NCBI GenBank assembly: GCA_905182075.1
Contig: CAJIZS010000001.1
Span: forward strand, 186,001 to 250,000
Origin: an uncultured Methylophilaceae bacterium
GTDB taxonomy: Bacteria; Pseudomonadota; Gammaproteobacteria; Burkholderiales; Methylophilaceae
Length of the DNA: 64,000 bases
Direction: 5' to 3'
The position numbers were made by a program, and so were the translations under genes. Shown here one piece after another: positions 17,126-62,531 of this stretch; position 1 is the first letter of the stretch, and every line of letters starts with the position of its first letter. The notes under the pieces are model-generated. The model saw only the letters and a program-made list of their open reading frames with translations. It was not told the DNA's origin and did not search any database.

Positions 17126-17848
17126 GCCTCTATCTTCGTATTTAGTTTTTGGTCTATAAGATGGTCTTTGGGTTAAATCCATATTTTTTCTTTTAAAGTC
17201 TTTTGACTCCCCAAAAATATGTAAAATCTGCAATGCATAATCCTCCCAATCAGTTGCAATATGAACATACCCATCTTGCTTGATCTTTTTGGCCATCAAG
17301 TTTATAAAAGGCTCCTGTATCAACCTTCTTTTATTATGTTTTTTTTTGTGCCATGGGTCCGGGAAAAAAATATGAATAGCATCTAAACTTTTTTCTTGAG
17401 CCATTTTTTCAAGAACCTCAACAGCATCATGGTGAATTACTTTTAGATTGGTAAGCTTCTTCTCTTCTATCTTATTTAAGAGATTGCCAACCCCTGGTGA
17501 ATGAACATCAATAGCAATGAAATTAACGTCACATAAGTTTGCTGCAATTTCTACTGTGGTATTTCCCATTCCAAAACCTATTTCTATAATTTTTTTACTT
17601 TGATTCTTAAAGACTGTATTCCAATTAAGAAAATTTACTTCAAAAGGAATAGCATGGAGCGAAGATAATAACTTTATCGTTCCAACTGAAACATTGACAT
17701 CGATATTAGAGGAACCATCTAAAGGATCCATTAATACGACATATTTATTTTCATTTTTTAAATTTTCATTTAAGATTAATTTCTTTATTAAAAATTTCTT
17801 CTTTATGATTCCAGGCAAATAAGTAATGAATAGATAATAAATGCTCAT
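17078..17848 (-). CDS. trmB: tRNA (guanine-N7)-methyltransferase TrmB, N-terminus replaced
   Basis: TrmB makes m7G46 in tRNA. From about 17674 down to 17078 the protein is standard: SAM motif [33 protein letters not shown], the catalytic region [26 protein letters not shown] and the C-terminal [13 protein letters not shown]. The usual first 30-40 residues (the RSF..RQGR region) are missing. The open frame instead runs into about 24 residues identical in type to the active-site loop of fructose-1,6-bisphosphatase. The listed start is just the first ATG of the fused frame. The 3' end overlaps engB by 48 bases. Confidence 0.8.
17675..17746 (-). other. Fructose-1,6-bisphosphatase-like fragment fused to trmB
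   Basis: Within the trmB frame, the residues [16 protein letters not shown] followed by VNVSVGTI are the metal- and substrate-binding loop of class I fructose-1,6-bisphosphatase, not part of any TrmB. The similarity may extend upstream to about 17820 with an internal frame error. The fragment is too short to be a functional enzyme. The wording is closest to gammaproteobacterial and Bacteroidetes FBPases from memory. Confidence 0.85.
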
Positions 17849-17855
17849 GCAAAAA

Positions 17856-18599
17856 ATGAAAAATAATAAAAAAGTAGCTTTAGTTACTGGTGGAGCCAAA
17901 AGAATTGGCGCTTCTATTTGCAGGCGCCTCCACAAATCAAATATAAACTTAATAATACATTATCGAAATTCTGAAAAAGAAGCCCAGGCACTACAAAAAG
18001 AATTAAATATTCTAAGAAAAGACTCGGTGACAATAATTCAAGGAGATTTATGCGATCAAAATATTTACGAGCCATTAATTTTAAAATCAATCTCTATTTT
18101 TGGACGGCTAGACTTCTTAGTGAATAATGCTTCGAGTTACTACCCAACTGAATTAGGTGAGATTAATGAAAAAAATTGGGATGATTTAATGGCAAGTAAT
18201 TTAAAAGCTCCTCTATTTTTATGTCAGGCTGCCGCTCCTTTTTTAAAGAAAACAAAGGGAGCAATAATTAATATTACAGATGTTCACATCAAACAACCAA
18301 AAAAAAATTATATAGTGTATTCGATCGCTAAAGCAGGCTTAGAAACACTTACAAAATCATTAGCACAAGAGCTTGGGCCAACGATTAGGGTAAATGCAGT
18401 AGCTCCTGGACCGATTCTTTGGCCTAATTCATCACATGAATTTGATGAGCTGTATCGTAAAAAAGTAATTTCACAGACTTTACTCAACCGATCGGGTGAA
18501 CCAGATGATGTATCTAAAGCTGTAGAATTTCTTCTACTAAATGCTCCATTTGTTACTGGACAAATTTTAAACATTGATGGTGGTAGGTCTTTTACATAA
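17856..18599 (+). CDS. SDR family oxidoreductase, pteridine-reductase/FolM-like
   Basis: A 247-residue short-chain dehydrogenase/reductase. The NADPH-binding motif is [16 protein letters not shown]; the Arg after Lys, in place of the usual third Gly context, is characteristic of pteridine reductases and Fol[11 protein letters not shown] follows. The active site is [21 protein letters not shown], with Asp in place of the usual catalytic Ser and the YxxxK pair, again as in pteridine reductases. The C-terminus is [15 protein letters not shown] likely role is reduction of dihydrofolate or dihydromonapterin. The start chosen is [13 protein letters not shown]; an ATG 5 codons upstream is also in frame. 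Confidence 0.85.
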
Positions 18600-18712
18600 A
18601 GAACTTAATCAGCTATTAAATACAAATAATTTTGTAAATAAGCTTGAATAGTTATATTTTTATATCTATTATTCATAATTCTCATATTTTTTATATTTCT
18701 AAACCCTATAAA

Positions 18713-21162
18713 ATGACTAAATTACTAATAGTTGAATCTCCTTCTAAAGCCAAAACCCTTAATAAATACCTGGGTAAAGATTATGAAGTTTTAGCATCAT
18801 ACGGTCATGTTAGAAATTTATTATCTAAAAACCAAGGTATTAATACTGAAAATTTTGAGATGAATTTTCAGTTAATTGATAGAAATAAAAAACACATCGA
18901 TGCAATAACAAAAGCAGTAAAAAAATCAGACGAAATATTGTTGGCGACTGATCCTGATGGAGACCCTGTAGGAACGCTTCGTTATTTAGCTGAAATATTA
19001 AATGAAAATAATTTAATTAAGAATAAAAGTGTAAGACGTGTAGTTTTTCAAGAAATAACTAAATCAGCCATCATCGAAGCGATTCAAAATCCGAGAGACA
19101 TTGCAACACCATTAGTTTTCGCACAACAAGCAAGACAAGCGCTCGATTATTTAATAGGCTTTAACCTCTCACCTTTATTATGGAAAAAAATAAGATATGG
19201 TTTGTCTGCGGGCCGAGTTCAAAGTCCTGCTTTGAGGCTTATTGTCGAACGTGAAATTGAAATTGAAAAGTTTGATAGCCAGGAATATTGGACAGTGCAT
19301 CTGGATACAGCAAAAGAGAAATCAAAATTCTCAGCTAAATTAATTATGTATAAAGGAGAAAAAGTTGAGCAATTCTCTATTTCTGATGCAAAAAAAGAGC
19401 AAGAAGTTGTTGGAGATCTTTTATTAAAAAGTTCAGGAAAAACTAAAGTATCAAAGGTTGAAAAAAAGCAAAGAACTAGAAAACCAACATCTCCTTTTAC
19501 AACATCAACATTGCAGCAAGAGTCAGTTCGAAAGCTTGGTTTTACTACGAAAAGAACAATGATCGTAGCTCAGCAATTATATGAAGGGAGTGCGGCTGGT
19601 GATGGATTGATCACATATATGAGAACAGACTCAATGAGTCTATCTAATGAAGCGACAGGCCAAATAAGGAAATATCTAGAAAGACAATTATGATGCGGAA
19701 TACCTCCCACCTAAACCTATCGCTTATAAAACAAAAGCAAAAAATGCACAAGAAGCTCACGAAGCAATTCGACCAACGAGTTTCTCAGCACATAAAGTAA
19801 CCGCCGAATCAGATCAAGAAAGATTGTATGATCTTATTTGGAAGCGTGCAATATCATCGCCAAATGACTAATGCAGTGTTTGATGCTGTAAGTGTTGACT
19901 TGGCAGCAGGATCAGAAGAAAATATTTTTAGAGCAACCGGTCAAACCATTAAATTTCCTGGATTTATGTCTGTTTATTTAGAGGATGAAGATGAGGGAAG
20001 TAAAGATAGCAGTAAAGAGAAAAATAATAGTACCAAATTACCAAACCTAATGCTTGGAGATACCCTCTCTATCGAAAAAATTTCAGGGGTTCAACACTTT
20101 ACAGAACCACCTCCAAGATTTTCTGAAGCAAGCTTAGTTAAAACACTTGAAGAACATGGTATTGGAAGACCATCTACTTACTCAAGCAGTAATTAATACT
20201 GTTGCAGGAAATGGCTCAGCCATTACTTTACCCCTACTGATGTGGGAAAAATTGTTATTGAATTTTTGACAGAGCATTTTACAGATTATGTAGATTATAC
20301 CTTCACAGCAAATCTTGAATCTCAGCTTGATGAAATAGCTGCAGACAGTAAAAACTGGCTAAGTGTTTTAGAAGAATTTTTGGACTAGTTTTAATAAAAA
20401 GATTAATGAGAAAAGTGATTTAGATAAAACAAAAATAACTCAAAAAGATATAGGGGAGAACTGTCCAAAATGCTCAAAACCACTTTTATCCAAGCTAGGT
20501 CGTCGTGGGAATTTTATTGCTTGCTCCAGTTATCCTGAATGTGATTTTACGCGAAGTGTTAATGGTGATGTTCCTCAAGAGCCTAAAGTGATTGCGGTAG
20601 ATAAGGAATCCAAAAAAGATATATTAATGATAATTGGTCCATATGGTCCTTACCTGCAACTAGGAATGCAGGAAGAGGGAGAGAAATTAAAACCTAAAAG
20701 AATTACATTCCAATCTAGTTGCTCAGTAAAAATTTTATTTAAGTATGTTTTGAAACTAATATCTCTTCCAAAGGATTTGGGTGTTCACCCTGATACAGGG
20801 AAAAAAATTATAGCTAATATTGGTCGTTTTGGTCCATATGTCAAGTTTGGCGATGAATTTAAATCAATTCCAAAAACAGAAAATATTTTTGAAATAAAAA
20901 ATAAAAATGAGTTATTTATTAAAACCTTTGAAAAAAATATTGAGGTATTTGATACACCTTCTTTCGATTTTATAGATTTGGTTTTTATATACAAGCTTTC
21001 TAGATATAGAAATACAATTTCTCCAGTTATTATAATGAAATGCTTCAAAGAATTTATGGAACATGCTGGACATCAAAAAAAGAATTAGAAGAAAAGAGTA
21101 AGAAGAAACCAGCTAAGAAGAAACCAGCTAAGAAGAAACCAGCTAAGAAGAAACCAGCTTAA
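18713..21162 (+). CDS. topA: DNA topoisomerase I TopA (frameshifted, with altered segments)
   Basis: TopA relaxes negative supercoils. It starts [20 protein letters not shown] (TOPRIM). [19 protein letters not shown] and [19 protein letters not shown] follow, then the catalytic tyrosine in [11 protein letters not shown]. Frame changes lie near 19690, 19850, 20185, 20220 and 20385. [19 protein letters not shown] follows, and one C4 zinc ribbon [10 protein letters not shown]...CSSYPECDF near 20460-20550. [19 protein letters not shown] comes near 20780. The C-terminus is a Lys-Ala-Pro tail. The TOPRIM acidic motif reads DPDGDPVG instead of the expected DPDREGEA, and about 190 bases near 20,900-21,085 do not look like TopA. 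Restored length is about 816 residues. Confidence 0.88.
21100..21159 (+). repeat. Four tandem copies of a 15-base unit encoding the TopA KKKPA tail
   Basis: The unit aagaagaaaccagct occurs four times exactly without spacer, directly before the topA stop. Each copy encodes KKKPA. Basic Lys-Ala tails are known at the ends of several betaproteobacterial TopA proteins and probably aid DNA or RNA polymerase contact. The last copies also overlap the end of the convergent peptidase gene. Confidence 0.95.
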
Positions 21163-22045
21163 TTACAGGACTTTTAGTTACCTTGTTTTTTATTGTCAAG
21201 CTTTCCTCCATCCACCTTCTTATTCTTTTAGCGTCTGCTATACGGGTATATTTACCATATGAATTTAATAAAACCATAATCACTGCTTGATTATTAATTA
21301 CGGTTTGCATTACTAGACATCTTCCAGCCTCCCGAATAAACCCTGTTTTAGATAATCCAATGTTCCACTGCCCTTTTCTTACTAGGCTATTGGTATTCAT
21401 AAACCCAATACTTTGTTTTTTTCTACCAACTTTAACTTTTCCAGAAACGGTTGTAGTCATCTTCCTTATTAAAGGATACTGGTATGCAGCTTCCACCATT
21501 CTCACAAGATCTCTAGCAGTCGATATGTTTCTCTTATCAAGACCTGTTGGGTCTTTAAATTTACTATTATGCATACCTAGTTGAAGGGCCTTTATATTCA
21601 TAGCTTTAATAAAACCATTTTTACCCGATGGATAAGATCGGCTTAAAGCAGAAGCTGCTCTGTTATCAGATGACATCAAAGAAATTTTTAATAGTTGAAA
21701 GCGTGAAAGTTTTGTTCCAATAGTAATTCTTGAGCCCGTCCATTTAAGCCTATCAATATCTAGTTTAGAAATCTTAACCTTTGCATTTAAATCACTTATA
21801 GAAGGCCATTTTCACCATAGCCGTCATAAGTTTAGTTAAAGATGCTATTGAAGCACTAGAATATGCATTTTTTTGGTATATTACTTTTCCACTATCTTGA
21901 TTTACTACCATCACTTTAGAAGAGCGGACAATTAATTTAGGGGATTTCTTCGCGTAAAATATTTTTGAATAGTAATTCCTTTTGGCCTTCTTTCAGCAAA
22001 ATTATATAAACAAAGTACTAAAAAAGTTTGGAAAAAACTCTGCAT
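21143..22045 (-). CDS. pbpG: D-alanyl-D-alanine endopeptidase, PBP7/PbpG type (N-terminal frameshifts)
   Basis: An S11-family low-molecular-weight penicillin-binding protein that cleaves peptidoglycan cross-links in the periplasm. The N-terminal part (MQSFFQTFLVLCLYNF) resembles a signal peptide. After a frame change come VMVVNQDSGKVIYQKNAYSS and the catalytic SxxK in SIASLTKLMTAM. After another change come SLMSSDNRAASALSRSYPSG with the SxN motif and GLSKTGFIREAGRC with KTG. From 21679 down to the stop the frame is intact. The restored length is about 300 residues. The 3' end overlaps topA by 20 bases. Confidence 0.87.
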
Positions 22046-22142
22046 TAAATTAAATTCTTCATATATTTGGTTCCCTCGATGATATACAATTTAGTTTAGC
22101 TTGTCACACTTGATTAAGACTAAAAATTTAAAAAGAGTAAAT

Positions 22143-22517
22143 ATGAATTACAAAACCGATGTACTTTATACAAAAGACCATATTTGGGCAAAGCCAGTAG
22201 ATAATTTCTATTTAATAGGTATTACTTATTTTGCGCAAGAGTTATTAGGTGACATTGTATTTTTAGATATAAAAAATGGTAAGGTATTTGAAAAAAATTC
22301 TGCTATTGGCATTATAGAGTCAGTCAAAACAGCTTCAGATATTATTGCTCCTGACAAAGGAGAGATTATTCAGATTAATTCAGAAATTGAAAAGCAACCA
22401 GAAAAAATAAACGAAAATCCTCATGGTAGCTGGATCTGTAAGGTTAGGTTTGCTTCGGAAAAGAGCCAAATTGACTTTCTATCACAGGAAGAATATCTTA
22501 ATTTAATTAAAGAATAA
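22143..22517 (+). CDS. gcvH: Glycine cleavage system H protein
   Basis: GcvH carries the aminomethyl group on a lipoyl-lysine between the P, T and L proteins. The preferred start gives MNYKTDVLYTKDHIWAKP (124 residues); an in-frame ATG 14 codons upstream is less likely. The lipoylated lysine is in IGIIESVKTASDIIAP, and NENPHGSWICKVRF is typical of the C-terminal half. No gcvT or gcvP is adjacent. The stop lies inside a hairpin that looks like its terminator. Confidence 0.93.
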   Translation: MNYKTDVLYTKDHIWAKPVDNFYLIGITYFAQELLGDIVFLDIKNGKVFEKNSAIGIIESVKTASDIIAPDKGEIIQINSEIEKQPEKINENPHGSWICKVRFASEKSQIDFLSQEEYLNLIKE

Positions 22518-22533
22518 ATTAAGATATTTTTTT
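22492..22533 (+). terminator. Hairpin with T-tract at the end of gcvH
   Basis: A perfect 14-base inverted repeat (22492-22505 with 22515-22528) has a 9-base loop, and the second arm runs into a tract of seven T ending at 22533. The first arm lies in the last codons of gcvH and the stop codon is the first three bases of the second arm. The stem is AT-rich, which weakens it as an intrinsic terminator. It also sits close to the end of the convergent pepA. Confidence 0.6.
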
Positions 22534-22547
22534 ACTTAGATGCTCGC

Positions 22548-23982
22548 TTAATTAAAAATTGACTTAAAAGATTTCACTGGCCTTCCTGTTGCTGACTTTT
22601 GAGCGCCAGAAATCCATGCAGTACCTGCTATATCTAAATGAGCCCAATTATATTTTTTTGCATATCTAGATAAAAAACATGCTGCCGTAATACTACCAGC
22701 AGCTCTTCCTCCAATATTAGCAATATCCGCAAAGTTACTATTTAAAAGTGGTTGATATTCATCCCACAAAGGCATTTGCCAAGCCAAATCCAATGATTCT
22801 TCTCCGGCATCTAGCAACTCTTTTGCTAAGGGCTCATGATTACTAAATACTGCTGAAGCATGGTGGCCAAGAGCAATTACGCAAGCCCCTGTCAAAGTAG
22901 CGATGTCGATTACTGTATCTGGGGTATATCTTTCTGTATAAGTTAAGGCGTCACATAAAACAAGCCTACCTTCTGCATCAGTATTTAAGATTTCTATTGT
23001 TTGGCCAGACATACTCTTAACAATATCGCCAGGTTTTAGTGCCGCCCCATCAGGTAAATTTTCACAAGCTGGTATAACACTAACAAGATTTATAGGTAAT
23101 TTAAGTAGCCCTGCCATTTTCATGACACCCAGCGCTGTTGCAGCCCCACACATATCATATTTCATTTCATCCATAGCAGGACTTGGCTTAATAGAAACAC
23201 CACCTGTATCAGCCTTATAAAAAACATCATAAACAATAGGTTTTTTATTTTTTCTCTCTAAAATTAAATTTTTTATAGTCTTCTCTACTCCCCTGCGTAA
23301 CAGATAAAAAAGATCCCATTTTTAATTTTTCAATTTGTTTTTTATCTAAAATTTTAACTTTAATATTTAATTCTTTTGCAAGTTTTTTTGCTTGGTTTGC
23401 CAAATAAGTTGGCGTACAAATATTTGGAGGTAAATTTCCTAAATCTTTAGTAAGGTTTGCGCCATTTGCTATAGCTTCACCATGCTTGATACCCAAATTG
23501 ACGTTAGATAAATTTGCTTTGTCTCCGTGAAGAATAACATTGTAAGAATTTGCCTTTTCTTTTGATGAAGTTTTTTGAGAATTTATACAGTAATTATTAT
23601 TGATAATGGCTCTAACAAGATATGAGCTTGCAGAATACATAGTGATCTCTTTATTTATAAATTGATCCAATGAAATAAGTATCGTATTAAAACTCTTTGA
23701 TTTTAAGTTTCTAGTAATCTTTTCAAGACTATTAAAGAAAATTTTTGCAGTTAATTTTTTTTGGTCTCCAACTCTTAATAGGATTACTCGTGAATACTGC
23801 TCAACTGAATGAGTAATTAAAGTATCGCCAACCTTGTTTGATAAATCTCCAGTTTTAATAATATTGTTCAATTTAGATACCAGCGGTTTATCCAGGCTAC
23901 TATTATTTAAAATTTGATTTTTATCGCTTACTGCTAATATAATAATGTCCGCTTGGATTTTTTTAATTAAATCTGATTTAAA
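22548..23982 (-). CDS. pepA: Leucyl aminopeptidase PepA (frameshifted, start unresolved)
   Basis: PepA is a dizinc M17 aminopeptidase. The N-terminal domain reads [17 protein letters not shown] and onward to [20 protein letters not shown] shift near 23245 separates it from the catalytic part: GGVSIKP region, [18 protein letters not shown], the active-site [16 protein letters not shown] and [14 protein letters not shown]. The C-terminus is [14 protein letters not shown]. No good start codon is in frame after the stop at 23983, so the 5' end is probably damaged. It is divergent from lptF, a common arrangement. Confidence 0.88.
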
Positions 23983-24029
23983 TTATTGTTACTATTTAGG
24001 ATTCTGTAGTAAATCAAAAAATTAAGCTA

Positions 24030-25146: not shown

Positions 25147-25147
25147 A

Positions 25148-26998: not shown

Positions 26999-27563
26999 AT
27001 GGACTCTTTTAAAAATTTATTCTGCATCAATTCTGATGGCTTCCTAAACAATGTCAAACAAATCCATTCTCCAAATCAAGATGCTCGCCCTTCCGATGAA
27101 GAGATTTCATTATTAGTTATCCATAATATAAGCCTCCCCCCAAATATATTTGGAAATACATATATAGAAGATTTTTTTTCTAATTCTCTCAATAATAAAA
27201 TACATCCGTATTTTAAAACTATAAAGAATCTTAAGGTATCTTCCCATTTCTTAATTAAGCGAACAGGAGAAATTATTCAGTTCGTTTCATGTAATAATCG
27301 TGCTTGGCATGCGGGCGAGTCTTCATGGAAAAATAAAGTTAACTGCAATAATTTTTCTATTGGAATTGAGTTAGAGGGTACGTCATGAACCTTTTGAGAA
27401 TAATCAATATATGAAACTTATAAACCTTATTAAATGTCTCTATAATAATTATCCAATTAGTGATATTGTTGGTCACAATCAAATCTCACCCCAACGAAAA
27501 ACTGATCCAGGGCCCTTCTTTAATTGGAATTTAATTAATTTGGAAAAAATTCATGAGAAATAG
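26999..27563 (+). CDS. ampD: 1,6-anhydro-N-acetylmuramyl-L-alanine amidase AmpD (one frameshift)
   Basis: AmpD is the cytoplasmic zinc amidase of peptidoglycan recycling. The first 129 codons give ISLLVIHNISLPPNIFGN with the zinc His, HFLIKRTGEIIQFVS, NNRAWHAGESSWKNK and SIGIELEGT. After a one-base shift near 27385 the frame continues FENNQYMKLINLIKCLYN and GHNQISPQRKTDPGPFFNW, which has the second zinc His and the conserved Lys and Asp. About 187 residues after repair. Its end overlaps the start of the next gene by 11 bases. Confidence 0.92.
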
Positions 27564-28624
27564 TATTAAATATATTTTCATACCAACTATATTCAGCATA
27601 CTTCTTCTTGGTTGCAGTGAAAAAGAATCTTCAGTAGAAAAAACTAAAAGAGCCATTTATATAACAATAGCTAAAGCATCATTAGAAACTTTTGAAGATA
27701 AGGAATCTGCAATAGGGTCAATTAGAGGGATTATTGATCCAACTATTTCTACAGAAATTTCAGGGAAAGTAATTAAATTACATGCACGAACAGGGTCAAT
27801 TGTAAAAAAAGGTGACCTTCTTGCCGAAATAGAGCAAAAAGATTACCAGTTCCAGTTATCTCTTTCAAAAGCAGAGGTTAGAAAGCTTGAAGCTCGACTA
27901 GCTAATCAAGAAAAAAATTATCTAAGAAATCTAAGTTTAGTTGATAAGAAATTTATTTCTGAAAATGCACTAGACGTAATTATTACAGAAAAAAATGAAA
28001 CCATAGAAGAGCTAGAAATTTTCAAGTCAAGAAAAAATATTGCGCAATCTAATATTGATAAAACTAAAATTTATGCGCCTATTTCTGGGACTGTTGAAAA
28101 ACAAATTCCTTCAATTGGAGATTTTCTCAAAATAGGAGATCCCGTATTTCAGATTATTAACAATAAAAAGCTTCGGGCACATATACCATTTCCTGAAAAA
28201 TTAGCTTCTAAATTAAAAGCTGGGTATTCCTATTAAGCTTAAAACACCAACCTCAGAAAGTGAAATTATAGTTAATATTGCTGAATTAAAACCTCAATTA
28301 ATGTCTGATAGTCGCTCTATAGATATCATAGCTGATATTGAGGGTCAGCCTGACTGGCAACCCGGAGCCAGTGTAAAAGGTACGGTAATTTTTTCAACCA
28401 GAGAAGGTGTTGCAGTCCCAGAACAAAGTGTTGTATTGAGACCGGCTGGACAAGTTGTATATATAGTCAATAAAGATAAAGTAGAGCAGCGTAAAGTCAT
28501 AATTGGAATTAACCAGGACGGTATTATTGAAATTCTCTCTGGGTTAGAAGAAAATGAAGTAGTTGCGCTTGACGGTGCCGGATACCTAACTGACCAAACT
28601 TTAATTAATATTTCAGCCCCATAA
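27553..28624 (+). CDS. RND efflux periplasmic adaptor lipoprotein (one frameshift)
   Basis: A membrane-fusion protein of the RND efflux type. The N-terminus MRNSIKYIFIPTIFSILLLG followed by Cys is a lipoprotein signal. The barrel-sandwich halves are ISGKVIKLHARTGSIVKKGD and IYAPISGTVEKQIPSIGDF, separated by a coiled-coil hairpin rich in Lys and Glu. A shift near 28230 joins the C-terminal part, which includes PGASVKGTVIFSTREGVAVP. It is followed after 4 bases by the RND pump gene. About 357 residues after repair. Substrate unknown. Confidence 0.9.
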
Positions 28625-28628
28625 AAGT

Positions 28629-31600
28629 ATGACATTACCTGAAATTTCAATTCGAAGACATGTGCTAGCCTGGATGATTTCGGCAATATTTGTTTTATTA
28701 GGAATTATTAGTTTTCAAAAAATTGGTATTGATAAATTTCCTACCATTGATTTTCCAATTCTCACGGTTACAACAGTATTAGAGGGAGCTAATCCCGAAA
28801 TTGTTGATGCCAGCATTACTAATCTAATTGAAGAAGCAGTAAACACCACTCCAGGTATTGATTCTATTAAGTCCGAATCATCTCCGGGTGTTTCTGTCGT
28901 AAGTGTCACATTTAATTTAGATAAGGATATTGAAGTAGCATTTAATGAAATTCAGTCAAAGGTGAGCCAAGTTAGCTAGGCGATTACCCGATGATATTGT
29001 GCCTCCGGTTGTTCGAAAAGTTGAAACAAATGCAAGTGCGATCATGTGGCTATCTTTAACAGGTAATCTGGATCCATCAATGTATACGCCAGAACATTTT
29101 AAAGAAAAAAATAGAAACTGTTGATGGTGTGGGTTATGTCACGCTAGGTGGAAGGAGAGATAGAACCATAAGAATTAATCTGCTTCCTGAAAGAATGTCT
29201 GCTTTAAAAATAACACCTAAGGATTTAATTGTTGCCTTTAAGAAAGAGCATATACAGTTACCTGGGGGATTTCTTGTAAGGGCTCAGTCAGAAAAAATGT
29301 TTAAACTTGATTTAGAGTTCCATAAAGTTAAAGATTTAAATGAAATGATTGTTGCCTATCGAAATGGTGGTCCAATTAAAATAAAAGATGTGGCTGAAGT
29401 AGAGGATGGCTTAGATGACTATAGACAAACAGCTCGACACAACGGCAAGCCATCAATTGGTCTTGGAATTATAAAAGTAGCGAATTCTAATACTGTTGAT
29501 ATTATTAATAAAATTAAAGAAAAAATTGACACACAAATAAGGCCAGATTTACCACCAGGTTTAGAGCTACAGTATTCAACAGATGATTCAATTTATATTA
29601 AATCTATGGTCAAGTCTCTTCAAAACCATATTCTTGAGGGGACTTTATTAGCAGCCTTGGTAGTGTTATTTTTCTTAAAATCTCTTCGCTCAACATTGAT
29701 TATTGCAATTGCTATTCCTATTTCACTTTTAGGCTCCATCGCAGTAATGTTTTTTTATGGTTTTACGTTTAACAGTATGACCTTGCTTGCTCTAATATTA
29801 TTGATTGGTGTTGTAGTTGATGACTCAATTGTAGTACTTGAAAATATTTTTCGCCATCAAAAAAATATTGATAAAAATATATTTAATGCAGCTATTAATG
29901 GAAGTAAAGAAGTTGTCTTTGCTGTCCTTGCATCTTCATTAGCTTTAGTTTTTAAGGGGCCCCAGTTATTTTTATGGATGGAATTATTGGGCGTTTCTTT
30001 GAATCATTTGCAGTAGTTGTTACAGCTGGAATATTAGTCTCATTAATCATTTCTTTAACATTAACCCCTATGTTGTGCTCAAAATTTTTAGCAATGCAGG
30101 AAAAAGAAATTAGTTGGCTCAAAGGTTTAAATAATTTCTTTGAAAAACTAGATAAAAATTACAAGAAAATATTAACTTGGACTTTATCCCATAGATTAAA
30201 AGTCTTAATTTCAAGCCTTATTATAGTTCTTGCAAGTAGTCTTCTTTTCTCAAAAGTAGAAAAAACTCTAGTACCTGAACAAGATGAAAGTCGATTTACT
30301 GTCAGATTTAAAACTCCTTTAGGCTCTAATATGGAATATACCTATAGCAAATTATTGGAAATTGAGAAAATTATTAATCAATATGATGACTACACCGCCA
30401 GTGTTTTCTCATCGATTGGATTGGGAAGTCGAGGACAAGTTAATAGCGGTTTTATTTCAGTTAGGCTGAAAGAAAAAAATAAACGCACACTATCTCAATC
30501 TGAAATTATGGAAAAAATGAGAATTGATTTTAATCAACTTGCTGGTGTAAAAGCTTATCCTTCAGGGGTTTCATTTGCTGGAGGTAGGCGTTCAGAAAAA
30601 TTACAATTTTCAATTACTGGGCCAAGTATTGAAAAGGTTGCTGCATTAAGTGATGAACTTTTAATAAAACTATCTGAAAATGAAGGATTAGGAAGGATTG
30701 ATCTTAATTTACAACTTAATTTACCTCAAATGATTTTAGATATAGACCGTGATAAAGCATCCAGCTTTGGTATTAGCGCTGCTGACATTGCCGAAGCAAT
30801 TTCTGTCCTAAGCAATGGGTTGGACGTTGCAAGATTCAATGATGAGCCAGGAGATGGGCAAAGATATGATGTTAGGTTAAAAGCAAAAGAGGGTTCGTTT
30901 GAAAAATTAAGCGACCTTAATAAAATATATTTACGAAGTACGTCTGGGGAACTAGTTCGACTTGATACGATTGCCTCTTTCCACCAAGAATTAGGGCCGG
31001 CAGTAATGGGGCGACAAGACTTACAATATTCATCAAATTTTTATTCTAATCCAACAATGTCTCTTGGTGAGGCGGTTAAATTAATTGAACAGGTCAGCGA
31101 GAATATTCTTCCTGGTGAATATTCTATTCAATTAGAAGGTCAAGCTAAAGAGTTTGCAAAAACCATGAGTAATGTAATTTTTGTATTTTTTTTAGCGACT
31201 ATATTACTTTATATGGTCTTAGCTAGTCTTTTTAACTCATTTTTCCAACCATTAATAGTTATGCTAGCGCAGCCATTAGCGGTAATTGGAGGTATATTCT
31301 TATTGTGGATTACTGGAAATAGTCTCAATATTTATTCAATGATTGGGATGGTTCTTTTAATTGGGCTTGTTGCAAAAAATTCTATTTTATTGGTAGATAT
31401 GACAAATCAATTAAAAGCAGCTGGGAGAAAAACAGATCAAGCGCTTCTGGAGGCATGCCCTATACGACTTCGCCCAGTCCTAATGACTTCTCTTACACTA
31501 ATACTAGCCTTGATGCCGGCAGCCTTAGGGTATGGTGCCGGGTCTGAATCTAATGGGCCACTTGCCATCGCTGTAATTGGTGGAATGATTTCTTCTACTT

Positions 31601-31701
31601 TACTAACCTTAATCGTTATACCTGCTGCCTATTCTTTATCACTAGAAGTTATTGAAAAAAAGAAAAGGAAAGTTAGGCTTAGGAACAGCATCCACAATTA
31701 G
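28629..31701 (+). CDS. RND family efflux permease, HAE-1/AcrB type (frameshifted)
   Basis: An inner-membrane proton-driven export pump of about 1,020 residues. It starts MTLPEISIRRHVLAWMISAI, typical of the family, with a porter domain after the first helix. Shifts near 28975 and 29110, and one near 29960 (around the VPVIFMDGIIGRFFESFA region), divide it. The proton-relay helix carries LLALILLIGVVVDDSIVVLE with the two Asp residues. The C-terminal half is intact, with MIGMVLLIGLVAKNSILLVD and IRLRPVLMTSLTLILALMP. Its last 60 bases overlap the convergent symporter gene. Confidence 0.92.
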
Positions 31702-32892
31702 TGCCCCTACTAAATCACCTTCAACATTAATTGTTGTCCTAAATGTATCGATCAACCTATCCATTGGGAGAAGAATGGCTAATGCTTCCAAAGGTAAGCC
31801 TAAAACCTGTAAAACCATTGCCATAGTTACCATTCCAGCACTAGGAATTCCCGGAGCACCAATTGAAGCAACCATGGCAGTAAAGAATAAAATAAGCTGT
31901 TGAGCTAAAGTTAGGTCCATACCGACTAGGTTTGCAATGAATAATGCTGCCGCTGCTTCATATAATGCTGTCCCATCCATATTCATGGTAGCTCCTAATG
32001 GAAGAACAAAATTAGATACCCCTTTAGAGGTCTTGAAATTATCGTTAGCTACACTCAAAGTAATTGGGAGGGTTGCTGCACTAGAACTAGTGGCGAATGC
32101 AGTAATAAATGCCGGCTTTCCTTCTCTCAATAAATTCATAGGTGTTATTTTAGTTAAGAAAAATAAAATAGTCGGTAGGATCACAACCCCATGAAAAAGA
32201 ATCAGAAATATTACAGTGAAAATAAAAATACCTAATTGCGAAAATAAATCCATATCTTGATTAACAACCATATTCACTAAAAGTGCGAATACCCCTAATG
32301 GTGCAAATAGCATTAACCAATGAACAATCTTAAGCATAACCTCATAAAGACTAGTAAAGACATTTTTAGCTGCCTTAAATTTATCTTTCTTATCATTTAA
32401 TGCGATACCAATAATGATAGAAAAAGCTATAAGCGGTAGAATTTTTCCTGAAGCAAGTGAATTAAACGGATTTTCAAATAAGCTCAATAAAAACTGCTTA
32501 AAGAATTCTAGGATTGTCATGGTGGGTGGTAAATTATTATTAACTGATTGCCAGGACTCGATAGTTAGACCAACGCCTGGCTGGACAATATTCATAACAA
32601 TAAGGGCCAAGGTAATTGCAATTGACATAGTTACCATAAAATATAAAAAAGTTGACTTCCATATTAAGCTTGAGTTTTTCCCTCCACCTAAATTTGAAAC
32701 GCCAACAACAATTGAGAAAAAAACAAGCGGTACTAGAATCATTTTAAGAGATTTGATAAATAACTTACCAACTAAATCCGTCAGCTCTAATATTGATTGA
32801 TTAAAAAATAGATCTGGGAAGAATTTAAGGAAAAGCCCAAGAAAGATTCCAGACAAAGCAGCTATTAAGATATATTTATTAGTAGTATTCAT
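31642..32892 (-). CDS. Dicarboxylate/amino acid:cation symporter (DAACS family)
   Basis: An intact 416-residue secondary transporter of the GltP/DctA family. The N-terminus MNTTNKYILIAALSGIFLGL is hydrophobic. The re-entrant loop HP1 carries FATSSSAATLPITL, and the cation-binding helix carries LPLGATMNMDGTALYEA (NMDGT). HP2 reads ASIGAPGIPSAGMV and TM8 LPMDRLIDTFRTTINVEGD. The Arg and Asp of TM8 suit acidic substrates; whether it takes glutamate or C4-dicarboxylates cannot be told. The 3' end overlaps the RND gene by 60 bases. Confidence 0.94.
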   Translation of the reverse strand: MNTTNKYILIAALSGIFLGLFLKFFPDLFFNQSILELTDLVGKLFIKSLKMILVPLVFFSIVVGVSNLGGGKNSSLIWKSTFLYFMVTMSIAITLALIVMNIVQPGVGLTIESWQSVNNNLPPTMTILEFFKQFLLSLFENPFNSLASGKILPLIAFSIIIGIALNDKKDKFKAAKNVFTSLYEVMLKIVHWLMLFAPLGVFALLVNMVVNQDMDLFSQLGIFIFTVIFLILFHGVVILPTILFFLTKITPMNLLREGKPAFITAFATSSSAATLPITLSVANDNFKTSKGVSNFVLPLGATMNMDGTALYEAAAALFIANLVGMDLTLAQQLILFFTAMVASIGAPGIPSAGMVTMAMVLQVLGLPLEALAILLPMDRLIDTFRTTINVEGDLVGALIVDAVPKPNFPFLFFNNF

Positions 32893-35957: not shown

Positions 35958-36489
35958 ATGGACCAACTTTTATGCATACTCTATGACTCAATGGTATCCA
36001 AAACTAGCTGAGTATGATTTTGAAGGGTGGCACGCAGTACCTTATATCGCTAGAGAATTTCACGGCGTTTGGGGAAATTTTGATGTTTCTATCAAGCTAG
36101 ATGAAAACTTTATTATAGGAGGTACGGGTTATCTTCAAAATGCAGATAAAAAAGGTTTGGGATCATTTTTAATCTTTACAATAGATACGTCATAAAGGGT
36201 TTCACTATCTTTAATAAAATATTGGAGATATGTGCCCAGCAGACTTGGATGGGGTCTAGTTTATCAACTAAAGGGGCTTACTGATATTGAAAAAATGTTA
36301 GCCTTGGAGCATCATGCAAAAGAAAAAGGAATGTCTTTAGATTCAAAAATAATTAGCTATTGTATAAACAACCTTCAAAGAGATCTTCATACTTTAATAG
36401 CAACACTAGACGCTCTAGATGAATGGTCTTTAAAAACAAAAAAGTCTATTACCATTCCACTACTTAAAAATTTAATATCTAATTCCTAA
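35958..36489 (+). CDS. hda: DnaA inactivator Hda, central part replaced
   Basis: Hda is the AAA+ protein that with the sliding clamp stimulates ATP hydrolysis on DnaA. The N-terminus MDQLLCIL matches the usual MxQLLLD start. After about 36157 the C-terminal half is readable with one shift near 36195: [25 protein letters not shown] (the Box VII-like sensor region) and [20 protein letters not shown]. The Walker A and B region between them is absent. In its place is a 58-residue segment of an M1-type peptidase. It overlaps the end of ahpF by 11 bases. Confidence 0.75.
35983..36156 (+). other. M1-family metallopeptidase fragment inside hda
   Basis: The residues [40 protein letters not shown] and [10 protein letters not shown] form one uninterrupted stretch typical of the N-terminal domain of Bacteroidetes M1 (gluzincin) aminopeptidases. 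Nothing in Hda resembles it. The rest of that peptidase, including HEXXH, is not nearby. It replaces roughly 120 Hda residues. Confidence 0.8.
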
Positions 36490-40339: not shown

Positions 40340-40798
40340 ATGCTTACACACACAGATAAAGATGGCAATGCCAAAATGGTTGATATATCAGACAAGGCTA
40401 TTACCAAAAGGATAGCAAAAGCTATTGGGTTTATTCAAATGAGCCCAAAAACATTATTATTATTAAATAAAGGTGAACACAAAAAAGGAGACGTCCTTAC
40501 AGTAGCAAAAATTGCTGGTATTCAGGCTGCGAAACAAGAATATAAGCCAATAATAAATGTTGAGAATCATGATACAATTGGTCTGCTTGCTATTGATCAA
40601 AAAAATAATATTTCTGGAGCATGTATGTCAGCTGTTGCTAAAACTGGTGTTGAAATGGAGGCACTGACCGCTACAACAATATCATTATTAACAGTTTACG
40701 ATATGTGTAAAGCAGTGGATAAAGAAATGCGTATCTTCGACATTAAATTGTCTGAAAAGCATGGCGGAAAGTCAGGTAGCTGGGTAGCAACTAGGTAG
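40340..40798 (+). CDS. moaC: Cyclic pyranopterin monophosphate synthase MoaC, core segment replaced
   Basis: MoaC makes cyclic pyranopterin monophosphate for molybdenum cofactor. The N-terminus LTHTDKDGNAKMVDISDKA and KGDVLTVAKIAGIQAAK, and the C-terminal AKTGVEMEALTATTISLL, YDMCKAVDKEM and EKHGGKSGSW are standard. Residues 68-95, where MoaC has the substrate-binding LCHP motif, instead read like a glycosylasparaginase. As written the protein would lack an essential active-site region although the frame is open. Its last 8 bases overlap the next gene, which is convergent. Confidence 0.85.
   Translation: MLTHTDKDGNAKMVDISDKAITKRIAKAIGFIQMSPKTLLLLNKGEHKKGDVLTVAKIAGIQAAKQEYKPIINVENHDTIGLLAIDQKNNISGACMSAVAKTGVEMEALTATTISLLTVYDMCKAVDKEMRIFDIKLSEKHGGKSGSWVATR
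40541..40624 (+). other. Glycosylasparaginase-like fragment inside moaC
   Basis: The stretch NHDTIGLLAIDQKNNISGAC, preceded by YKPIINVE, matches the autoproteolysis site region of N4-(beta-N-acetylglucosaminyl)-L-asparaginases (DTIG..AID..G..SGAC), including the Thr nucleophile. MoaC has nothing like this. The insertion keeps the MoaC frame open on both sides. Confidence 0.8.
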
Positions 40799-41684
40799 TC
40801 AAAAGAGGTATTATTTTATTCATAATAACCTCAACTTTAATTTTTGTTATTTCAAAATTTTTATCTTGATACCATTGTGCATTTTTACCCCAGGGTTTAT
40901 ATCTATATGGCTCGCCATTGCCAAACAAAGTGAATGTTTTGACTCCAACTGAACTAGCAACATGTCCTAAACCAGAATCATTCCCTATAAATAAATCAGA
41001 GTGCTTGATTAACGCTGCCGTCTCAATAATATCGTATTTGCCCATACAGTTAATTACTTTACCATGATAATTTTCAATAAATTTATCTGCGTATTTCGAA
41101 TCATCTTTGTTGCCAACCAGAATAACCGCATCAAAATATTTAAGAAGTTTATTGGACAAATCAGCATAAGAGGTAACCGGCCAATTTTTGGCTTTAAATC
41201 TAGATCCTAAGCCAATAGATAATATTTTACTTCTTTTAATATTACTTATTCTTTCTTTAGCTAAAGATATTTCTTTCTTTGATATCCATATTTTAGTATC
41301 CGGAAGTTTATTTGAAACTATGCCTCCTAAGCAATAATAATGCTTTTCTACACTATGCAAATTCATTGATTTTTTATTAGGTAGCTTATGAACTTTTATT
41401 TTAGATTTTATAAAATAAAGCAACCCATCTGATCTTAAGTCAATTGCTAAATCATAATTTGTGAGCCTTAATTTTTTTAATAGGGTTATTAACCCAATGA
41501 ATCCATCGTCTTTATTTTTAATAAACAAATTTTCTACATATGGAAAATATTTAAAAATACAAATTGATTCAATCTTAGATCAAGATTACAAACATTTTTT
41601 CTTATATATTCGAGATGATGGATCAACAGACTCTACTCTATTTAAAAGAGTAATAAATAAAATCTTTTGTATTTTAATTGTCAT
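40791..41684 (-). CDS. Glycosyltransferase family 9 (heptosyltransferase-like), N-terminal segment replaced
   Basis: GT9 enzymes add heptose or similar sugars to the LPS core in the cytoplasm. The ATG at 41682-41684 gives MTIKIQKILFITLLNRV, a normal GT9 first strand. The next 110 bases are a family-2 glycosyltransferase fragment on the other strand. From about 41528 to 40791 the minus frame is intact with YDLAIDLRSDGLLYFIKSK, ILSIGLGSRFKAKNWPVTSY and the donor-binding DLFIGNDSGLGHVASSVGVK. The overall length of about 298 codons fits the family. Confidence 0.78.
41533..41640 (+). other. Family-2 glycosyltransferase fragment inside the GT9 gene
   Basis: On the plus strand, STYGKYLKIQIDSILDQDYK followed by HFFLYIRDDGSTDSTL is the nucleotide-sugar binding start of a GT2 enzyme (STYNGExYL...QxY...IRDDGSTD). 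It has no start of its own and no GT2 remainder follows. It interrupts a minus-strand gene that resumes on both sides. Confidence 0.75.
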
Positions 41685-44090: not shown

Positions 44091-45059
44091 TTATGGTTTA
44101 GCTTTAAGTAGTTTTATTAACTTATCTTTTTTTAATGGATTAACGAGCCACCCCGTTACATTATGTTCAATAGCATCAGTAATTCCACCATCTTCGCCGC
44201 CTATAGATGGAATTCCATACATTGCAGCTTCGATATAAACTATTCCAAAACCCTCAACTGAATCTTTGTACCTATAGGAAGGCATGACAAATAAATCAGC
44301 ATCACTAAACAGCCTCCTTTTCTTAGTTTCGTCTATTTTTCCACAAAAGGTTACAAATGTATCCAAATTCAATACTTTTGATCTTCTCTTAAGTTCGTTT
44401 AAATCTGGTCCATCCCCTGCAATAGTCCAATGCCAGTTTATTAACTTGTTATTTTTAATTAATATAGATAGTGCAGACATTGTTTCAAACAAACCCTTTC
44501 TTCTTTCTATTCTCGTGAGGCTAAATAAATTAACCAACTCGCTTTTTTTTCTAACTTTCTTACTTATTTTTAATGAGTCTTGCAACCCTTAATTACAACC
44601 CATTTTAATCATAATTTTTTTTTTAAATTTTTCAATCAAATTTTTTGTATACGCTGATGTTGATATCAAAATATTTGACCTTGATAGCGCTAATTTTATT
44701 TTCTTACCATTTTTATCTTGGTCAAGATACTCTTGCCCGTGTGCTAAGGTAACTATCTTATTTGAATAGGTCCCTGGTATTGCTGAAACTGATTTCCAGC
44801 TATCACAAATAATAATATCCTCTATTGAGCTTAAAAAAAATAGTTTTACAAACTTCACATAAGGTCTGATGATTTTTGGAAATAATGTTGGGTTCATTTT
44901 AATGGTAAAATTTTTACTATTAACTGGTTCCTTACAAGAATGATCGAGAAAAATAATTACCTCGCCATATTCCGAAAGGCCCTCTGAAAGACTCTTCATA
45001 ACAAGTTGCATCCCCCCTTTCCTTGGAGGGAATGTTTGAGTAACAATGATAAATTTCAA
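44091..45059 (-). CDS. Glycosyltransferase family 4 (frameshifted)
   Basis: A GT-B glycosyltransferase. The acceptor domain starts MKFIIVTQTFPPRKGGMQLV with the glycine-rich loop, then IVTLAHGQEYL. A shift near 44587 joins LVNLFSLTRIERRKGLFETM, WHWTIAGDGPDLNELKRR and SDADLFVMPSYRYKDSVEGF with the E(x)7E-like GFGIVYIEAAMYGIPSIGG. The C-terminus stops early (after LLKAKP), lacking the usual last helix, so another error may lie near 44100. Length is about 322 codons as it stands. Confidence 0.85.
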
Positions 45060-45149
45060 TGTCTATCCTGATTATTTATTTTTATTCCGATGAAATAAAT
45101 ATTTAATGTATTTTCCAACATATTCTTTAATAAGAAATAATTATTTTTT

Positions 45150-48091: not shown

Positions 48092-50068
48092 TTATTTACC
48101 AGTAATTGCATATTTTTCGAATAAGTTTAAATCTATTTGCAAACCTAAAATAACAACTATATCGCCAGTTGCCAGTATTATATCCTCACGAGGCTCTACA
48201 TCTTCAAGCATGTTGGGTCTCCTTAAGTATTGTATTTCAATATTAAATTTCTGTAATGGTAAGTTTTTTAATGATTTATCTTTAATAAAAAAGTATTTTT
48301 TAATCTCTATTGAATGAAGCTGAAGGCGGTCTTGAATGGTATTCTCTTCATCTAAATCAGTTGCACCAACAAAATACCCTTTAAACATTTTATATTTTTC
48401 ACTTCTAAAAATCCTAATCTTTTTTATCACACTGCTAAGTGGAACACCCAATAGAACCAGTGCATGAGATGCTAACATCAAGCTCCCTTCCTGAACCTCT
48501 GGAACTACGTCTGTAGCTCCAGAATTTTTTAATGCCTCGACCGAAGATTCATCTTTAGTTCTTACAACAACGGGTAGGGTTGGGTGGGATTCACGAATAA
48601 CATTCAATACTTTTTCAGTGGACCTATCTTCTGCATAAGCAATTACAACAGCTTTTGCCCTTTCAATCCCAGCGGCTCTTAAAACAATTCTACGACTTGC
48701 ATCTCCATACATTACATTTTCACCAGCATTGGCTGCGTCACTAACCCGGTTCAAATCTATATCAATAGCAATATATTTAATATCTTCTTCTTTTAAAAAC
48801 CTTCCCAAATATTGTCCGCTTCTTCCGTACCCACACAAAATCACATGATCAAATAGATCATGTCCTATTCCCTCCTGCTGCTTCATTAATGTTTCTGTTT
48901 TTTTAGAATACCCTTTAGCAATGAATCTTGCGATCCTTCCATTGTATGGAATTAATATTGGGGCAAATAGCATTGATAAAAGGCAAACAGACAATATAAT
49001 CTGAAGAATGTCGCCCGAAATAATTCCGCTCTCTTGTCCAAGCGCTAAAATTACAAAGCTAAATTCTCCTGCTTGCGAAAGAATAATTCCAGAACATAAA
49101 AAGAAAAAGCTTATTGAAATTAAATAAGTAAAAAAAGTTATTAAGATTATTTTAAATAAGGTAAGCCCAATAAACAACACAAATATTAATAAAAAATTAT
49201 TACTCAAAGCCTGAAAATCAATCATCATTCCAACACTAATAAAAAATAATCCTAATAAAATATTTCTAAATGAAGTTATGTCTGACTCTACTTGATGCCT
49301 ATATCGAGTTTCTGAGATTAACATTCCAGCTAAGAAAGCACCTAGAGCATAAGATAAACCAGCAAGCTTGGTGGCATAAGAGAAAATAAGAGTGATCATT
49401 AAAACATTTAAAACAAATAATTCTCTTGATTTATTTTTTGCAACAATATCAAACCAAAAGTTCATCACTGGTTTACCAGCTTTAAAAACAATAAATAATA
49501 AAAAAACAATTTTTAATAGTGCAAAGATAACCAGTTTAAATAAATCTGCATCTAAATTATTAAATACAGGGATCAATATTAAAATAAATATCACCGCAAT
49601 ATCCTGAAATAATAGAATCCCAATAGACAGCCTACCATGTCTACTATTTAGATCAATTCGCTCCATTAAAATTTTCGAGACTATAGCTGTGGAAGACATA
49701 GTCAGGGCCGCTCCGATAATAAATGCTGTAGGCAGATTTAGGCCAATAAACACTCCGAACAATATAACGGTAAAAATTGTTATTTCAGTGGGTGTTGCTA
49801 AACCAAATAATATACTTCTCATTGAATTTAACTTGGGTAAACTAAATTCCAAACCAATTGTAAACATTAAAAATACAATACCAAATTCAACAAAATGGCG
49901 ACTTGATTCAGAATCTGGAAGAATTCCTAAAGCATTAGGTCCAAGAACAAGCCCCACGACAAAATATGCAATCATTGGAGGCAGCCTTAAATAGCTAAAA
50001 AGAGCCACCATCAAGACTGAACTGACTAACAATAAAATAATTAATTGGATTGATTCAAACATAATCAC
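48092..50068 (-). CDS. CPA2 monovalent cation:proton antiporter with RCK domain
   Basis: An intact 658-residue KefB/YbaL-type protein. About 12 membrane helices begin SVLMVALFSYLRLPPMIAYF and include GIVFLMFTIGLEFSLPKL and the ion-binding FLAGMLISETRYRHQVESD. A TrkA-N/RCK domain follows, with the nucleotide motif HVILCGYGRSGQYLGRFLKE and AVVIAYAEDRSTEKVLNVIR, then a TrkA-C domain ending near ATGDIVVILGLQ. It probably exchanges K+ or Na+ for protons under nucleotide control. The start could be the ATG two codons later. Confidence 0.92.
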   Translation of the reverse strand: MIMFESIQLIILLLVSSVLMVALFSYLRLPPMIAYFVVGLVLGPNALGILPDSESSRHFVEFGIVFLMFTIGLEFSLPKLNSMRSILFGLATPTEITIFTVILFGVFIGLNLPTAFIIGAALTMSSTAIVSKILMERIDLNSRHGRLSIGILLFQDIAVIFILILIPVFNNLDADLFKLVIFALLKIVFLLFIVFKAGKPVMNFWFDIVAKNKSRELFVLNVLMITLIFSYATKLAGLSYALGAFLAGMLISETRYRHQVESDITSFRNILLGLFFISVGMMIDFQALSNNFLLIFVLFIGLTLFKIILITFFTYLISISFFFLCSGIILSQAGEFSFVILALGQESGIISGDILQIILSVCLLSMLFAPILIPYNGRIARFIAKGYSKKTETLMKQQEGIGHDLFDHVILCGYGRSGQYLGRFLKEEDIKYIAIDIDLNRVSDAANAGENVMYGDASRRIVLRAAGIERAKAVVIAYAEDRSTEKVLNVIRESHPTLPVVVRTKDESSVEALKNSGATDVVPEVQEGSLMLASHALVLLGVPLSSVIKKIRIFRSEKYKMFKGYFVGATDLDEENTIQDRLQLHSIEIKKYFFIKDKSLKNLPLQKFNIEIQYLRRPNMLEDVEPREDIILATGDIVVILGLQIDLNLFEKYAITGK

Positions 50069-51702: not shown

Positions 51703-52207
51703 ACTAATTTTTTTACTACTTATGCTAGTACCTTCTACGGGAGTTGCAGAAAAGTCTGATAGGGATAAACCAATAGAAATAGAAGCAGATACAATGACAG
51801 TTGATGACACTAAAAGTATTAGTACATATACTGGAGATGTAATACTTACTCAAGGAACTTTAATTATTCATGCAGATACATTAATTGTAAGAGAGGATAA
51901 ACAAGGTTTTACTCATAGCACATCAATAGGAGAGCCAGCAACTTTTAAGCAAAAGATGGAAGGGGGGGATGAATATATAGATGGTAAAGGATTAAGAATT
52001 GAATATGATGGTCACATGGATAAAGTTCATTTATATGAAAAAGCATATGTAAAAAGAGGTACAGATGAAGTATGGGGTGACTATATAATGTACGATGCAA
52101 ATAGCGAATTTGCTCAAGCATTATCTGGAGATACCAAAAATAAAAATGGAGAAGTCAGAAAAAAAGGGCGCACAAAAGCAATCATAAATCCTAAAAAAGT
52201 AAATTAA
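51680..52207 (+). CDS. lptA: LPS transport periplasmic protein LptA
   Basis: LptA forms the periplasmic bridge that carries LPS to LptDE. The intact 175-residue protein has a signal peptide (MKNLKVIKLIFLLLMLVPST, ending near GVAEK) and an OstA-fold with KPIEIEADTMTVDDTKSIST, YTGDVILTQGTLIIHADTL and KGLRIEYDGHMDKVHLYEKA. Its start overlaps lptC and it is followed by lptB. Confidence 0.94.
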   Translation: MKNLKVIKLIFLLLMLVPSTGVAEKSDRDKPIEIEADTMTVDDTKSISTYTGDVILTQGTLIIHADTLIVREDKQGFTHSTSIGEPATFKQKMEGGDEYIDGKGLRIEYDGHMDKVHLYEKAYVKRGTDEVWGDYIMYDANSEFAQALSGDTKNKNGEVRKKGRTKAIINPKKVN

Positions 52208-52228
52208 TAATGTAAAGGGGAATGTATT

Positions 52229-52267
52229 TTGGACATACATGAGTATCAAGCAAAAGAAATTTTATGT
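52229..52267 (+). other. SucC N-terminus-like fragment at the start of lptB
   Basis: In a frame different from lptB, codons from a TTG at 52229 read [13 protein letters not shown] and then stop. Succinyl-CoA synthetase beta subunits begin M(N/D)[10 protein letters not shown], so the match covers nearly the whole segment. A possible aaagggg ribosome binding site lies just upstream. No SucC continuation follows. Confidence 0.7.
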
Positions 52268-52933: not shown

Positions 52934-52935
52934 AT

Positions 52936-56658: not shown

Positions 56659-56659
56659 G

Positions 56660-57450: not shown

Positions 57451-57452
57451 CT

Positions 57453-60782: not shown

Positions 60783-61349
60783 GTTAATCTTTCCAATAAA
60801 TATTCATATTTTATAGACTCAATGTTCCATGATTTATCAAAAAAATTTACCTGTAAGGGTTTGGGTAATTTCTTCTTATCCAGCTTTACTTCTAACACAA
60901 TATAGTACTTGTAAACATTAGATTTATTTTTAAAATTTAAATCCCATTGTTTATTATTTGAAACTTTTTATTGCTTCCTCTAAATCATTAAATTCTTTTT
61001 TTTTGCCATATACGCCATGAACCTCGTAGACTTGCTTTAATGTTTTATACTTAATTCTGTAGAAGAGCTCTACTTGCTGAATTTTTTCATCAAACCGAAA
61101 GTTATTTTTAATAAATACTCTGCAGACTATTTTGAAATTAAAAGGTATCCCCTTATTTATAGCACTTTTAATTTTCTTGGATAATTTAATTTTTTGTACA
61201 AACTCGATTGAATAACTATTTTCATTTTTTTTAAAACTAAAATCTTTTATTTCAATACTTTTCTCGCCCTCAAATGCATTTACATTTCCTGAAAATAAGA
61301 AAATTATCAGCACCGCATATATATATATTTTACTTTTCAAGTAATGCAT
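60779..61349 (-). CDS. DUF4390 domain protein (one frameshift)
   Basis: This gene regularly lies between rsmB and ntrY in Betaproteobacteria. It starts MHYLKSKIYIYAVLIIFLFS with a signal peptide (cleavage near VNA), then IEIKDFSFKKNENSYSIEF and YRIKYKTLKQVYEVHGVYGK. A break near 60955 precedes SNVYKYYIVLEVKLDKKKLP and SWNIESIKYEYLLERLT, which ends at the TGA overlapping the ntrY ATG. About 190 residues. Function unknown; probably periplasmic. Confidence 0.8.
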
Positions 61350-62531
61350 AAAATAAGCCATCATGAATGTCGTTTGGAATTAGTTGATTCTCTATTGAAA
61401 TTATATTGTTTGGAAATTTTATTTCTATCTCTTCTACATTATTAATTTTTTTAAATTTTTCAATCACGGCTCTATTTTCTTCCCTAAATATTGAGCAAGT
61501 GACATAAAGTAATTTACCTTTATCCTTTAACATTCTCCCATGATGCTTTTAGTAATTGAAACTGCTTTTCGTGGAAATAATCTAAATCATCACGCCTTCT
61601 TAACCATTTAATATCTATATGCCTTCTTACTATCCCTGATGCTGTACATGGTGCATCAAGCATTATCCTATCAAATTGCTTTCCATCCCACCATTCATTA
61701 CTTTTATCTACCTTTGCATTTATTACTTTTGCTTTTAAGTCCGCTCTTCCTAGATTATCCTTAATCATCTCAACTCTTTTTTTATCAAGCCTCTCATATG
61801 CTGCAAACCTTCAGTACTATGTTAACCAGGCAGCACATAAATCTAAAACTTTGTGACCCTCTTTTAAATCTATTAAATGCCCAGCCAATTGGGCGGCCTG
61901 ATCTTGAATTGATACATATCCATCTATAAAATTAGGAATCTTTTGAACATCTGTGGGTTGCTTTCAATAAATGAAGATTTATTAAAAAAATCCTTAAAAG
62001 AAATTTCTAAGTTAAATCCAAAACCCGGCTCTGCTTTATTTTCTTCAACAAGTGTTGTACAACACATTATTCCAGATTTTAATATTTCTATTATTGATGG
62101 GCAATTAGATTTAGTGATGAATACTGGGATGATTCCAGAGCTCAGAATTAACTCAGGATTCAAAGACTTATTGCAAGGGTATAAAGAAACCAAAGGAAAG
62201 CAAAACAAGACACAGAAAGAGGCTGTGTTTTTTGTTAAGCAAAAATTAGATTACTGCAAAATGGCTTATCAGATGTCATTTCGTCTAGAGCTATAGAAGC
62301 TGCATCTAAAGATTATCATCAATTCCTTCTTTTGACTAATTTGTTGATAATAAATGAAGACTCTCCTAAGAATCTTAATGCGCCGTATACTAAATTTTTT
62401 ATTTCAGGCTTATTTATTTCTTCTAATTTTTTACTGTATTTTTCAAAAAATACTGCAAAAGTCTTATCAAGGTTTTTGCCTGATAAGACATTTTGTAAAA
62501 TTAATGACGCTATCCATTGTGATACATTCAT
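61330..62531 (-). CDS. rsmB: 16S rRNA m5C967 methyltransferase RsmB, middle part replaced
   Basis: RsmB methylates C967 of 16S rRNA. The N-terminal NusB-like part runs MNVSQWIASLILQNVLSGKN to KNLVYGALRFLGESSFI. From about 62270 to 61945 the minus strand has no RsmB sequence and the plus strand reads as a sigma-54 factor. RsmB resumes with FIDGYVSIQDQAAQLAGHLI, KVLDLCAA, then ADLKAKVINAKVDKS, FDRIMLDAPCTASGIVRRH and LLYVTCSIFREENRAV with the two catalytic Cys. Further breaks are near 61815 and 61530. Its 5' end overlaps the fmt stop by one base and its 3' end overlaps the DUF4390 gene. Confidence 0.85.
61945..62270 (+). other. Sigma-54 (RpoN) fragment inside rsmB, opposite strand
   Basis: On the plus strand an open frame reads EDLLKKSLKEISKLNPKPG, QHIIPDFNISIIDGQLDLVM, IPELRINSGFKDLLQGYKET and KEAVFFVKQKLD. 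These match the core-binding to central region of RpoN, and the long KETKGK..TQKEA..FVKQKLD wording fits Bacteroidetes RpoN, not the betaproteobacterial rpoN at 52,936. It is about 320 bases, the longest foreign segment in the window. Confidence 0.85.

Follow-up and report, generated by a model that had tools for sequence, protein, structure and literature searches.

The window, that is the whole stretch of 64,000 nucleotides analysed here, covers positions 186001-250000 of contig 1 of a genome of 1,107,123 bases in 2 contigs, for which the record nevertheless lists only 47.36% completeness, with 2.1% contamination. The low GC and the gene content suggest a host that we take to be an OM43-like marine methylotroph. 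In six genes of the window, trmB, hda, moaC, a GT9 gene, lptB and rsmB, part of the expected sequence is replaced by a short segment encoding a piece of an unrelated protein (Table 1). These six segments had been claimed in an earlier note made by reading the sequence; we located all of them, with corrections. That note described each host gene as continuing beyond its patch, which strictly holds in moaC, the GT9 gene and rsmB; trmB, hda and lptB instead lose their 5' ends to the patch. The two segments described as antisense to their host, in the GT9 gene and in rsmB, do lie on the other strand. To compare the window with its relatives, we used the RND pump genes as a query, which gave matches in 24 of 41 genomes (own genome counted), all of one genus, and assembled a set of syntenic stretches from 13 genomes of this genus. 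The order of the matches is conserved in the first five relatives compared, over the parts covered by their contigs, and the mean DNA identity of the window to its relatives is 68-71%.

Table 1. Foreign patches and strain-level tiles in the window (window coordinates).
Feature	Position	Strand	Context	Evidence
FBPase (fructose-1,6-bisphosphatase) piece	17675..17749	-	in frame with trmB, takes the place of its 5' end	Pfam FBPase, E 3.6e-11
M1 peptidase piece	35977..36162	+	supplants the hda N-terminal part and upstream DNA	alignment break
Glycosylasparaginase piece	40538..40624	+	in frame within moaC	phmmer, E 8.5e-11
GT2 glycosyltransferase piece	41542..41640 (edges approximate)	+	antisense to the GT9 gene	Pfam Glycos_transf_2
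SucC N-terminal piece, ten residues	52235..52264	+	lptB start, different frame	translation, alignment, gap 52205-52250
RpoN piece	61960..62298	+	antisense to rsmB	Pfam Sigma54_CBD, E 3.4e-13; donor DNA match
Strain-level tile	49836..49981		in a gene otherwise far more diverged	146 bp, zero mismatches to G023
Strain-level tile	11119..11345			227 bp near-identical to G014

Firstly, we examined what the patches encode. The families proposed earlier for the FBPase, glycosylasparaginase and RpoN pieces were confirmed by profile and sequence searches. At trmB, a single ORF matches two Pfam families above their cut-offs, Methyltransf_4 (E 1.7e-52) and FBPase; two gaps at this site (17678-17760 and 17774-17846) have no counterpart in five relatives, and past the patch it is the neighbouring gene that picks up, not trmB. 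The moaC patch encodes 29 amino acids of a glycosylasparaginase, found by phmmer against solved structures and in agreement with the local alignment. The GT2 piece scores below the Pfam cut-off (E 6.4e-4; 20.1 bits against 23.3), at a place where positions 41568-41636 of the GT9 gene have no homology to five relatives. In hda, about the first 114 residues give way to the M1 piece, whose 79-residue fragment gives zero Pfam or NCBIfam hits by itself; its best relative is a 637-residue ORF that we presume to be an M1 peptidase from an HExxH-type motif. The ten residues at the lptB start, read by eye, are presumably the start of SucC. Judged by their E-values, the FBPase, M1, glycosylasparaginase and RpoN patches exceed chance; the GT2 and SucC patches, taken singly, are weaker. 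The window holds two RsmB-like genes (32893-34148 and 61330-62558), of which the second, adjoining what we take to be fmt, carries the RpoN patch.

Secondly, we searched for the origin of the patches, which the earlier note had described as Bacteroidetes-like. DNA was compared with nine Flavobacteriales genomes for positions 24001-64000 and with 13 for positions 4001-24000, and the putative donors are indeed Flavobacteriales-like. The RpoN piece is 97% identical in amino acids, and 94% in DNA over 339 bp, to contig NYWQ01000010 of the Flavobacteriales MAG CPC1469 (G041), the other eight genomes of the same search reaching 69-76%. Two larger genomes from the same order (G101 and G221) match the FBPase piece at 85% in DNA over 74-75 bp. 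Among 395 genomes of that order, 312 of which gave a match, the two best by E-value are 76-77% identical to the M1 piece over 62 residues. A single donor genome was rejected: G041 fits the RpoN piece at 94% in DNA and the M1 piece at merely 57% in amino acids, which implies more than one donor. We also rejected a contaminant contig as the source: a search of the window's own assembly with 2,500 bp from around the donor's rpoN gave the 339-bp match only.

Thirdly, we assessed whether the patches occur in the relatives, which the earlier note had named, together with even read coverage through the junctions, as speaking against an artefact. When the patch peptides were searched in the 13 related regions, none matched except RpoN in three, the 11-residue SucC peptide being too short for a strong test. 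These RpoN matches are weak (35, 28 and 27% in G005, G019 and G024, E 5e-8 to 6e-4) and are taken to be those genomes' own rpoN. Conversely, with G005 proteins as queries over the 13 regions (G005 itself counted), hda was covered over at least 97% of its length in 13 of 13 and trmB over at least 95% in 12 of 13, the remaining region (G017) beginning beyond trmB; moaC was almost full length in nine, partial in G014 and missing in three. In the window, coverage begins at residue 36 of trmB, residue 115 of hda and, for the best lptB piece, residue 107. This test does not discriminate for two genes, moaC and the GT9 gene: in both, the window alignments cross the patch (residues 1-153 of 157 at 51% and 15-313 of 316 at 46%), so that the case there is carried by the local alignments and the family hits. 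Several regions stop before, or are without, lptB, the GT9 gene or rsmB, and part of the matches are thus paralogues. A scan against five relatives found 16 gaps without homology, 10 of them outside the patches, and left the moaC patch unflagged. The patched regions roughly keep the length of the corresponding regions in the relatives: 461 bases at trmB (424-476 in relatives, leaving out G019, which has an extra gene there), 481 at hda (551-553), 376 at moaC (391), 211 at lptB (194-216) and 363 at rsmB (417).

We then analysed the quality of the underlying assembly with a purpose-written, frameshift-aware protein-to-DNA alignment, using the proteins of relatives as queries. The two widest comparisons revealed 90 frameshifts in 18,365 residues (G019) and 95 in 19,144 (G005), and three others gave 50 in 13,041 (G010), 49 in 12,453 (G018) and 38 in 9,320 (G002), far above the 4, 1, 2, 0 and 0 found in five control pairs among relatives. 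The frameshifts form 98 clusters, 81 of them seen with at least two relatives. By sign, 56-57 frameshifts look like the gain of a single base and 33-39 like a single-base loss. A stretch 0.37 Mb past the window (L104, positions 620001-640000 of the contig) carries the same burden, with 36 frameshifts in 5,701 residues, 35 in 5,961 and 34 in 5,746 against three relatives, versus none in either of two control pairs. ORFs cover 0.73-0.75 of the window and 0.47-0.86 of eight other stretches of the genome, compared with 0.83-0.96 in the 13 relatives, G014 being the lowest. The assembly is therefore unreliable. Over the same region, the proteins of G019 gave 39 frameshifts in 18,327 residues of G014. 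We considered whether G014 shares the fault of the window and set this aside: it has 11 low-identity patches against G019, eight of them within one variable stretch, and foreign patches were not established among them. Since G014 is frameshift-rich without demonstrated foreign patches, noise alone may not be enough to bring them in.

L104, the single stretch outside the window that was searched against Flavobacteriales (13 genomes), contains a similar tile. Its positions 11720-12038 are 84% identical to G041 overall, and 60-bp bins from 11740 give 97, 93, 88, 75 and 69%, where three relatives of the genus give 57-85%; the first ~195 bp align to G041 without indels. The tile falls within a conserved gene, at its orthologous position; from the reverse-strand C-terminus we take this gene to be ychF, and tuf, considered at first, was rejected. 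A cross-phylum piece at an orthologous position is the result expected if reads had been mapped onto conserved sequence.

Pieces of nearer origin are also present. We listed 12 stretches of ~60-230 bp, some overlapping, that are near-identical to one of 6 of the 13 relatives; next to the tile identical to G023, the 60-bp bins at 49620-49800 are only 65-78% identical. No such stretch was found in 12 of 16 control pairs. The positive pairs were G019-G024 (2 stretches), G019-G014 (198) and G018-G010 (10), which are closer pairs, and G005-G018 (4), whose overall identity resembles that of the window. These stretches support tiling of the window, although natural recombination may account for part of them.

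We are highly confident that the patches are an artefact of sequence construction rather than biology. Most likely, the backbone is a noisy long-read consensus, or a gap fill, from one bacterium, and a step of hybrid correction, polishing or gap filling wrote into it pieces of short-read length from other strains of the genus and from several Flavobacteriales, presumably co-occurring in the sample; the best-aligning short sequence would have been inserted where correct reads were scarce. The patches and tiles have the length of short reads (30-339 bp) and are Flavobacteriales-like or strain-level, and the frameshift load is far over that of clean relatives (90-95 versus 0-4 in the window). The earlier suggestion of an artefact is thus upheld overall, by the donors, the short patches with collinear return, their absence from the relatives, the frameshifts and the tile in L104; its first-named cause, ordinary chimeric reads, fits badly with patches as short as these. 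A related fault has been described: in PMC10690975, overcorrection arises when misaligned short reads add errors to long reads in mixed samples. As here, wrong short reads are aligned to long reads in a mixed-sample setting; the passage concerns repeats and very similar strains, whereas some of our pieces come from another phylum, and wrong-read correction reaching across phyla is our own extension. Residual indels in long-read MAGs, for which interrupted ORFs serve as an indicator (PMC9426551), similarly produce short ORFs and frameshifts, but indels alone import no foreign coding sequence.

Chimeric molecules formed in the library or during amplification (by ligation, template switching or whole-genome amplification) and retained by the assembler are an improbable source. 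The RpoN patch gives them some ground. Its first ~293 bp differ from the donor by substitutions only, and its last ~45 bp, with four single-base insertions, resemble an uncorrected long read and yet track the donor, so that the long read itself may have held donor DNA; the same switch from clean to noisy sequence fits partly corrected reads. Chimeras, however, typically have long arms and would not come back to the collinear site after 30-340 bp. At least seven double events would be required, six of them in the window and a seventh in L104, the latter falling on the orthologous site in a conserved gene.

That the patches are real, brought in by DNA uptake and short-patch illegitimate recombination with unrelated environmental DNA, appears very unlikely. 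The replacements are short, collinear and roughly length-preserving, and three of the six lie on the reading strand of the host, in or near frame. Against this, reading frames are interrupted throughout the sampled genome where no foreign patch is involved: recombination of this kind would be expected in an otherwise intact genome, and here the frameshifts run through the window and L104 and ORF coverage is low. The patches strike genes usually held essential, and lptB is usually counted among these. At the left edge of the RpoN patch, the only one with a near donor for a microhomology check, the overlap is at most ~4 bp, and the right edge is blurred by insertions. No relative of the 13 carries a patch, although the SucC peptide is short and some regions lack lptB, the GT9 gene or rsmB. 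A precedent is the illegitimate recombination reported in Acinetobacter baylyi with fully heterologous DNA (PMC8116780), where DNA is likewise integrated without extended homology; it is there a rare event in a cultured strain, whereas several events fall here within a 64-kb window of an error-ridden assembly. Searches of the literature for short-patch double illegitimate recombination, or for OM43 with PacBio, metagenome and frameshift, returned no match, from which we do not claim absence from print. We give very little credence to a micro-mosaic bacterium in which uptake keeps swapping patches of 30-340 bp for unrelated DNA of Flavobacteria, even in housekeeping genes, the lineage being caught as a snapshot. 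Decaying genes in a shrinking genome, with old fragments resembling other families by chance, would account for the numerous broken frames, but the 94% DNA match of the RpoN piece to its donor is neither chance nor old decay, which rules out decayed pseudogenes, and G024, G008 and G015 have 0-1 frameshifts over the same region (G014 has 39), leaving this the least credible reading.

If the patches were introduced during sequence construction, as we favour, the sole representative genome of its species seems to hold short cross-phylum chimeras despite its 2.1% listed contamination. Such patches could be mistaken for horizontal transfer, for gene fusions (a TrmB-type methyltransferase and an FBPase in one ORF) or for antisense genes. 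The combination of a frameshift load with short patches resembling other members of the community provides a signature for which databases could be scanned.

Other parts of the window stand apart in their relation to the genus. Identity to G005 rises to 82-88% in DNA at positions 27500-32500 and 36500-38000, much of the remaining window being at ~65-75%; these stretches may reflect either real recombination between strains or an assembly that switches from one strain to another. A glycosyltransferase-like ORF at 44529-45079 has no counterpart in the first five relatives, and among the 13 only G023 aligns there, at 65-66% (500-bp bins); this is probably a strain-variable surface-sugar region.
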